Notes under the pieces: model-generated
What the model was told of the DNA's origin: nothing
Seen by the model: the letters and a program-made list of their open reading frames with translations, nothing else
The model's database searches: none
Shown: piece after piece, positions 43,051 to 44,157 of the stretch
Numbering within the stretch: position 1 is the first letter of the stretch
How the letters are laid out: every line of letters starts with the position of its first letter
Made by a program: the position numbers and the translations under genes
Origin: Fidelibacterota bacterium
Lineage (GTDB): Bacteria; Fidelibacterota; UBA8477; JABMPR01
Reading direction: 5' to 3'
Length of the DNA: 64,000 bases
NCBI GenBank assembly: GCA_018673925.1
Contig: JABHBL010000102.1
Span: 1 to 64,000 of the forward strand

Positions 43051-44106
43051 ATGACTAGAAGCTTAGAAATAAATCTAACCGCCAAAGTCAAGGCCGCTGG
43101 CTGAGCAGGTAAAATTGGTCCAGGGGACCTGGACGACATACTTTGCGGGATTGATATTCCATCACATCCTGACCTGCTCATAGGGATTGACCATCGTGAT
43201 GATAGCTCAGTTTACAAATTGAGTGAAGACATTGCTGTTGTCCAATCTCTAGACTTTTTTACACCCATTGTGGATGATCCCTTCACGTTTGGACAAATCA
43301 CGGCTGCCAATGCCTTTAGTGACCTATATGCCATGGGTGCTCGTCCTGTCACAGCATTGAACATCGTTGGTTTCCCAGTTGATGATATGGATAATTCAGT
43401 GCTACGAGATATTCTGAAAGGCGGTCTGAGCAAGATCAACGAATCTGGGGCGGTGCTTGCTGGGGGTCATTCGATTAAGGACGATGAGTTAAAATATGGT
43501 CTCTCCGTCACAGGCGTGGTCCACCCTGACAAAATGATTTCCAACGGTGGATCTCAACCTGGCGATGCCCTGATTCTCACCAAGCCTCTGGGAACGGGAA
43601 TTGTTGCCACTGCCTTGAAGCGTAAGATCATATCTCCTGAAGAGCTGGACACCATGGTTGAAAGCATGGTCAAGTTGAATAAGTATGCAGCCGATGTAGT
43701 TGGAGGGTATTCAGTAAACGCCATGACGGATGTTACTGGCTACGGCTTGATTGGGCATTTATTGGAAATGTTGGATGCCAGCTTTATGGATGCAACAATC
43801 TTTGTGGACCAACTTCCTGTTCTACCAGGAGCTTATAAATACGCTGATCAAAATGTGATCCCCGGTGGACTGAAAAACAATCGTGAATTCTACAAACCAC
43901 GCATTGCAGTTGGCTCTGGTGTCACCGAGTTGGAAGAATTATTAGTGGTTGATCCCCAGACTTCTGGTGGTCTACTTATCAGTATCCCCGGAGAAAAAGC
44001 CGAAGCCATTGTTGAGGATCTCCATGCCAATGGAGTTGCGGAAGCCCAGGTTGTTGGTGAAATCAGCAATTCAAGTGCTGAACCACGAATTTCACTTCAG
44101 AAATAA
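43051..44106 (+). CDS. selD: Selenide, water dikinase (selenophosphate synthetase), itself a selenoprotein
   Basis: A 351-residue enzyme making selenophosphate from selenide and ATP, the selenium donor for selenocysteine tRNA and selenouridine. The ATG at 43051 directly follows an in-frame TAG. Codon 18 is TGA (43102-43104) in the context A-A-G-U-A-G-K-I, which aligns with the catalytic Cys17...Lys20 of the E. coli enzyme (GCGCK). The frame continues unchanged into unmistakable SelD sequence (GIDHRDDSSVYKLSEDIAVV, DFFTPIVDDP, GGHSIKDDELKYG, MTDVTGYGLIGH, DPQTSGGLLIS). A hairpin lies 12 bases after the TGA. The TGA is therefore read as selenocysteine. Simple gene calling would start too late, near 43219. 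The organism should also have selA, selB and selC, not in this window. Confidence 0.95.
43102..43134 (+). promoter_or_regulatory. Selenocysteine UGA codon and candidate bacterial SECIS hairpin
   Basis: The recoded TGA is at 43102-43104. Twelve bases later a stem GGTCC/GGACC (43117-43121 with 43125-43129, loop AGG) can form. It competes with a stem CCAGG/CCTGG (43120-43124 with 43128-43132, loop GGA). Spacing and G-rich loop fit a SelB-binding bacterial SECIS located inside the coding sequence. The exact fold is not determined. Confidence 0.7.
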
Positions 44107-44129: not shown

Positions 44130-44157
44130 AATCCAGGCCAAACCTGGATTTTTTTAT
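44130..44157 (+). terminator. Rho-independent terminator after selD
   Basis: An 8-bp stem (AATCCAGG with CCTGGATT, loop CCAAA) is followed by a run of T on the plus strand, 24 bases after the selD stop. It lies at the junction with the leftward heme-barrel gene. Confidence 0.9.

Follow-up and report, generated by a model that had tools for sequence, protein, structure and literature searches.

A selD gene with a conserved in-frame TGA, most probably a selenocysteine codon, in a marine Neomarinimicrobiota genome

Selenophosphate synthetases that themselves contain selenocysteine (Sec) are already well known in bacteria and are well described in passages of PMC1794560, PMC4561486, PMC2398784 and PMC13188914. 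The selD gene considered here lies in the window, a contiguous stretch of 64,000 nucleotides (64 kb) from a draft genome assembly. Like the known Sec-containing bacterial SelD, it belongs to family TIGR00476, has a predicted Sec at the position of the catalytic Cys and is followed by a putative bSECIS element; it differs in lineage alone, being found, and conserved, in a little-studied marine group, Neomarinimicrobiota (a name taken from its nearest relatives). SAR406, which we take to be Marinimicrobia, would belong to the same phylum. Table 1 of PMC5029168, the part of that paper used here, lists three SAR406 genomes as "orphan SelD", that is, having SelD and no other known selenium component. 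These entries agree with the present data as to the presence of SelD; however, 30 of the 40 phylum genomes analysed here carry SelB along with a TGA-containing SelD, and the older listing may be explained by incomplete genomes. Passages of PMC2398784 describe SelW-like proteins and SelD as the most widespread members of the marine GOS selenoproteome, which also lists Prx-like 1 and Trx-like 1 proteins with a UxxC motif, and report that almost half of the Cys-SelDs are fused to NADH dehydrogenase; these same passages make no link between GOS selenoproteins and this phylum. The selenoprotein passages of PMC8318568 concern a deltaproteobacterium, and we found no paper in the open-licence literature titled on the selenoproteins of this phylum.

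The selD frame occupies positions 43051..44106 of the forward strand, running from an ATG at 43051 to a TAA at 44104-44106 and encoding 351 residues; codon 18 (43102..43104) is its sole internal TGA. A TAG in frame immediately 5' of the ATG means that there is no longer selD start. When U was entered as C in a profile search, the product matched TIGR00476 with 376.5 bits (cut-off 125). A phmmer alignment to 3u0o, which we take to be E. coli SelD, matches residue 18 to the Cys in the motif AGCGCKISP; K21, three residues past U18 (codon 21, 43111..43113, forward strand), aligns to a Lys in solved selenide, water dikinases. The aligned Cys and Lys of 3u0o are presumably the catalytic residues, and we assume that codon 21 corresponds to the essential Lys20 of the E. 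coli enzyme. Thus, the reading proposed in the initial annotation, with a TGA on the catalytic Cys position, a Lys three residues on and a frame open through all 351 codons, is confirmed by the sequence and by the alignment to 3u0o. Altogether, 32 TGA-bridged frames above the length filter were present in the window, and homology across the TGA was examined for one of them, selD. The gene is preceded by genes for a PPIase-domain protein and an alpha-amylase and followed by a minus-strand gene whose product has no Pfam match; selA and selB both lie elsewhere. An inverted repeat followed by a run of T residues, identified by eye at 44130..44155 (forward strand), is a possible intrinsic terminator of selD.

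Standard gene calling was expected to truncate selD and to lose its active site, and this is what occurs: with translation table 11, the ORF obtained begins at a TTG (43219..44106, forward strand), encodes 295 amino acids and lacks both U18 and K21. Taken at face value, this ORF fits a scenario in which the TGA terminates translation, so that selD would be either a pseudogene or the source of a protein shortened at its N-terminus by reinitiation and devoid of the catalytic Sec. Such a scenario seems to us highly improbable, as residues 8 to 31 are nearly invariant on either side of the TGA in the sequences of the genus, the frame and length of SelD are conserved in relatives, and no second strong SelD match was found in the genome, a 90% complete draft. 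A match on contig C55 (E 1.4e-4, 28% identity, residues 78-262) was considered as a second SelD and set aside as too weak; we take it to be, probably, another AIRS-family protein.

Conservation of the TGA itself was assessed in 46 SelD loci, a number that includes the gene under study and duplicates, many of the loci being the same contig present in two collections. Codon 18 is TGA in 44 of these and TGC in two (L059 and L060); after near-identical loci were merged, 32 TGA rows and two TGC rows remained (32/34 TGA). All 16 SelD loci retrieved by a scan of named genomes have TGA at this codon. Eleven of them are from Candidatus Neomarinimicrobiota, with 73-89% identity to the selD product, and the other five (43-50% identity) come from two Marinimicrobia records, two Zixiibacteriota and one Dehalococcoidales. 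The remaining 30 loci were fetched from 40 phylum genomes, the genome under study included, and comprise 28 with TGA and the two with TGC. At an E-value of 0.001, 34 of these 40 genomes give a SelD match; one of them (G025; E 8e-7, seven stops) was left out, so that 33 are counted as having SelD. The match contains one TGA in 30 genomes and no stop in three, codon 18 having been read from the fetched loci, which include none from G028 and G033 (among the 30) or from G030 (among the three). The stop-free SelDs sit in frames of 737-743 amino acids, a length that suggests the known oxidoreductase-SelD fusions and recalls the Cys-SelD fusions reported in passages of PMC2398784. In one genome (G022), a TGA-containing SelD is accompanied by a partial SelD in a 700-amino-acid stop-free frame (C64:3-836).

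If codon 18 is decoded as Sec, the genome should contain the decoding machinery, and the initial annotation had pointed to selA, selB and selC as the genes to look for. All three score above cut-off in this 3.41-Mb assembly (113 contigs, 90.0% complete, 0.38% contamination): selB with 348.3 bits (C10:80602-82428), selA with 524.4 bits (C10:84001-85326) and selC, the tRNA-Sec gene, with 72.0 bits against a gathering score of 47 (C102:6039-6129). ARAGORN independently reports a tRNA-SeC with anticodon tca, and the winged-helix domains SelB-wing_2 and SelB-wing_3 of SelB both exceed their cut-offs. Among 14 control genomes, two pass the cut-off for selB, one for selA and five for tRNA-Sec; the tRNA-Sec cut-off alone is therefore not fully specific. 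Within the phylum, SelB is above cut-off in 33 of 40 genomes and tRNA-Sec in 31 of 40 (at most 80 candidates being scored per genome). SelB is found in all 30 genomes with a TGA-containing SelD, in all three with a stop-free SelD and in none of the seven without SelD. The corresponding figures for tRNA-Sec are 27/30, 2/3 and 2/7; the three TGA-SelD genomes lacking it over cut-off (G005, G010 and G033) are 72-88% complete, and the two SelD-less genomes that have it (G008 and G013) are 63% and 86% complete. Association between SelB and TGA-containing SelD yields a Fisher p of 6e-6, uncorrected for relatedness, the other ten genomes including the three with SelB and a stop-free SelD. Outside the genus of the window, TGA-SelD and SelB occur together in 13 of 21 phylum genomes.

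The surroundings of selA and selB show some recurrent features. An Nramp-like gene (L064:9573-10898, minus strand) is found between the two genes in the genome under study and in four of four other loci of the genus, and in none of ten loci outside the genus. The idea that it might mark a general selenium transporter was dropped on the latter count; within the genus, the gene may be a clue to the transport of a metal or of selenium. A second gene (L064:12424-13188, minus strand) adjoins selA and has a weak match (78 bits, cut-off 383) to PRK10621, presumably a TauE/SafE-type membrane family. A gene of this kind adjoins selA in nine of 15 loci (own locus included), belonging to genus, family and order relatives and to G028. 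Finally, 12 of 15 loci from across the phylum have mutS (L064:4807-7428, minus strand) in the vicinity of selB; in L083, one of the three loci without it, the contig ends just past selB.

A hairpin 12 bases downstream of the TGA had also been noted, and this corresponds to a 5-bp stem, GGUCC/GGACC, which begins 12 nt past the TGA and closes on an AGG loop (43117-43129, forward strand). The stem overlaps an alternative register, the putative bSECIS upper hairpin GUCCAGG-GGA-CCUGGAC (43118..43134, forward strand), which has 7 bp and a GGA loop; it begins after 13 nt and its loop lies 20 nt past the UGA. From the TGA on, 59 nt fold with -18.9 kcal/mol (z -2.79), a value equalled by 2 of 200 shuffled sequences. 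Limits for bSECIS elements given in a passage of PMC13188914 are a loop of 3-9 nt with G in its first two positions, an upper stem of 4-16 bp, a spacing of 16-37 nt and an MFE of -7.5 or less. As measured against this passage, folding the bases past the TGA, a check proposed at the outset, gives a hairpin within the limits: its stem has 7 bp, its loop reads GGA at a spacing of 20, and its 17 nt have an MFE of -10.0. An Rfam scan of the window returned no match at the gathering score.

Conservation of this hairpin can be seen at synonymous positions. In 17 sequences of the genus, aligned by codon number without gaps, synonymous-codon identity is 1.0 in codons 23-28 as compared to 0.46 in codons 33-350, and this six-codon window is the highest of 345. 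When synonymous codons were shuffled according to the codon usage of the window, 0.8% of 500 variants of the selD segment folded as well as the original. The proportion was 5% or less in 24 of 32 TGA rows and above 5% in eight, and it amounted to 8% and 73% in the two Cys rows. The best stem has at least 7 bp in 28 of the 32 TGA rows and 5 or 6 bp in the other four, two of which (L057 and L062) have the stem at another place; in the two Cys homologues the best stems measure 4 and 2 bp. Covariation was analysed in an alignment of 32 rows, 25 of them distinct. In the 7-bp register, 85.7% of cells are paired and both sides change at four of seven pairs; in the 5-bp register the figures are 92.8% and two of five. 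With one partner slid, no more than 46% and 65% of cells, respectively, are paired, a comparison in which the unslid version is favoured, since the structure was derived from one aligned row. Pairing and covariation scores were reached by none of 500 shuffles in either register. Not all measures of covariation outperform the shuffles: further pair types were reached by 83/500 (7-bp register) and 92/500 (5-bp register), and the count of pairs with changes on both sides by 6/500 and 92/500.

These data also bear on the idea that TGA has been reassigned throughout the genome, or that an ordinary suppressor tRNA reads it as Trp or Cys. We found no evidence in support of this idea, the tRNA search having covered tRNA-Sec, and regard it as very unlikely: six of the 24 long ORFs of the window end in TGA (ends as given by ORF calling), dedicated tRNA-Sec, SelA and SelB exist, and the hairpin shows conservation at synonymous sites, both Cys homologues having only a weak one. 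As for a sequencing or assembly error in a Cys codon, which the draft nature of the source assembly (113 contigs) might suggest, its probability appears negligible and conservation in effect refutes it, since TGA is found in 44 of 46 SelD loci (own gene and duplicates counted) from many separate assemblies, and selA, selB and selC are present.

The search for other selenoproteins, also proposed in the initial annotation, covered a few families, so that the set obtained is a partial selenoproteome. Three UGA-containing redox-gene candidates emerged in the genome. The first is SelW-like (YCVTUNY; C107:62376-62600) and the second Prx-like (GGWUPYC; C107:4837-5469). For the former, matches below 1e-10 with one TGA each occur in 28 of 40 genomes, the one under study among them, a weak match in G020 contains both a TGA and a TAG, and eleven genomes have no match; for the latter, 11 of 30 genomes match at E 1e-30, ten with one TGA and one (G028, 42% identity) stop-free, all these TGAs being counted per match, wherever in it they lie. 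In the Prx-like protein, U77 aligns to a Ser of the best solved relative and a conserved Cys lies three residues on; the motif is thus a UxxC, as in the Prx-like 1 family in passages of PMC2398784. The third candidate is TlpA/ResA-like (WUGNC; L077:1132-1977, minus strand, on the minus strand of contig C87, G000:C87), the search query having begun at L077:1965, four codons past the likely Met at 1977. Its U aligns with the first Cys in the CxxC motif of ResA, and a T9SS type A sorting domain at the C-terminus, which scores 44.9 bits against a cut-off of 23, indicates that it is possibly a secreted or surface selenoprotein; we found no related paper on selenoproteins and type IX secretion in the open-licence literature. 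All three candidates have a 7-bp hairpin with a 3-nt loop starting with G, 17-22 nt past the UGA. In the TlpA-like gene the loop is GGU and the distance 17 nt; in the Prx-like gene the hairpin alone reaches only -5.7 kcal/mol and its 45-nt fold -10.4. The candidates resemble the GOS families of PMC2398784 in domains and motifs, the two features by which they were matched to passages of that paper.

No FdhA over cut-off was found in the genome; two matches to formate dehydrogenase alpha fall below cut-off, are stop-free inside and were not called FdhA. MnmH/YbbB (selenouridine synthase) exceeds its cut-off in one of the 40 genomes (G019) and not in the genome under study, where a YbbB match covering profile positions 4-36 only was discarded. 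In a draft that is 90% complete, such absences of FdhA and YbbB are not proof.

Taken together, selA, selB and selC, the three candidates, the hairpin and the conservation of the TGA support the original proposal that selD is a selenoprotein gene and implies a working Sec system, and we are nearly certain that it encodes a Sec-containing selenophosphate synthetase. Actual Sec insertion and enzyme activity are what we infer from known biochemistry. A ribosome reaching UGA18 of the selD mRNA would meet SelB-GTP and Sec-tRNA-Sec bound to the hairpin just downstream, and Sec would be inserted instead of termination. Full-length SelD would then rely on Sec18 and Lys21 to turn selenide and ATP into selenophosphate, with which SelA would convert Ser-tRNA-Sec to Sec-tRNA-Sec, feeding the synthesis of SelD itself and of other selenoproteins, such as the SelW-like, Prx-like and TlpA-like candidates.

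TGA-containing SelD thus occurs with SelB in 30 of 40 genomes of a marine phylum, 27 of the 30 also having tRNA-Sec. In the genome under study, reading TGA as a stop during gene calling removes the active site of selD and would cut the three other candidates. More tentatively, the Sec trait might form a closed loop, in that making the one SelD found takes Sec, and the selD UGA could work as a bistable switch for selenium in the service of a small redox selenoproteome, one member of which is a T9SS-sorted TlpA-like selenoprotein; this speculative reading follows from the lack, in the 90% complete draft, of a Cys-SelD backup, a selenouridine synthase or a formate dehydrogenase over cut-off. The lineage is well suited to asking how selenium use can resume in a cell whose one known selenophosphate synthetase itself needs selenocysteine.
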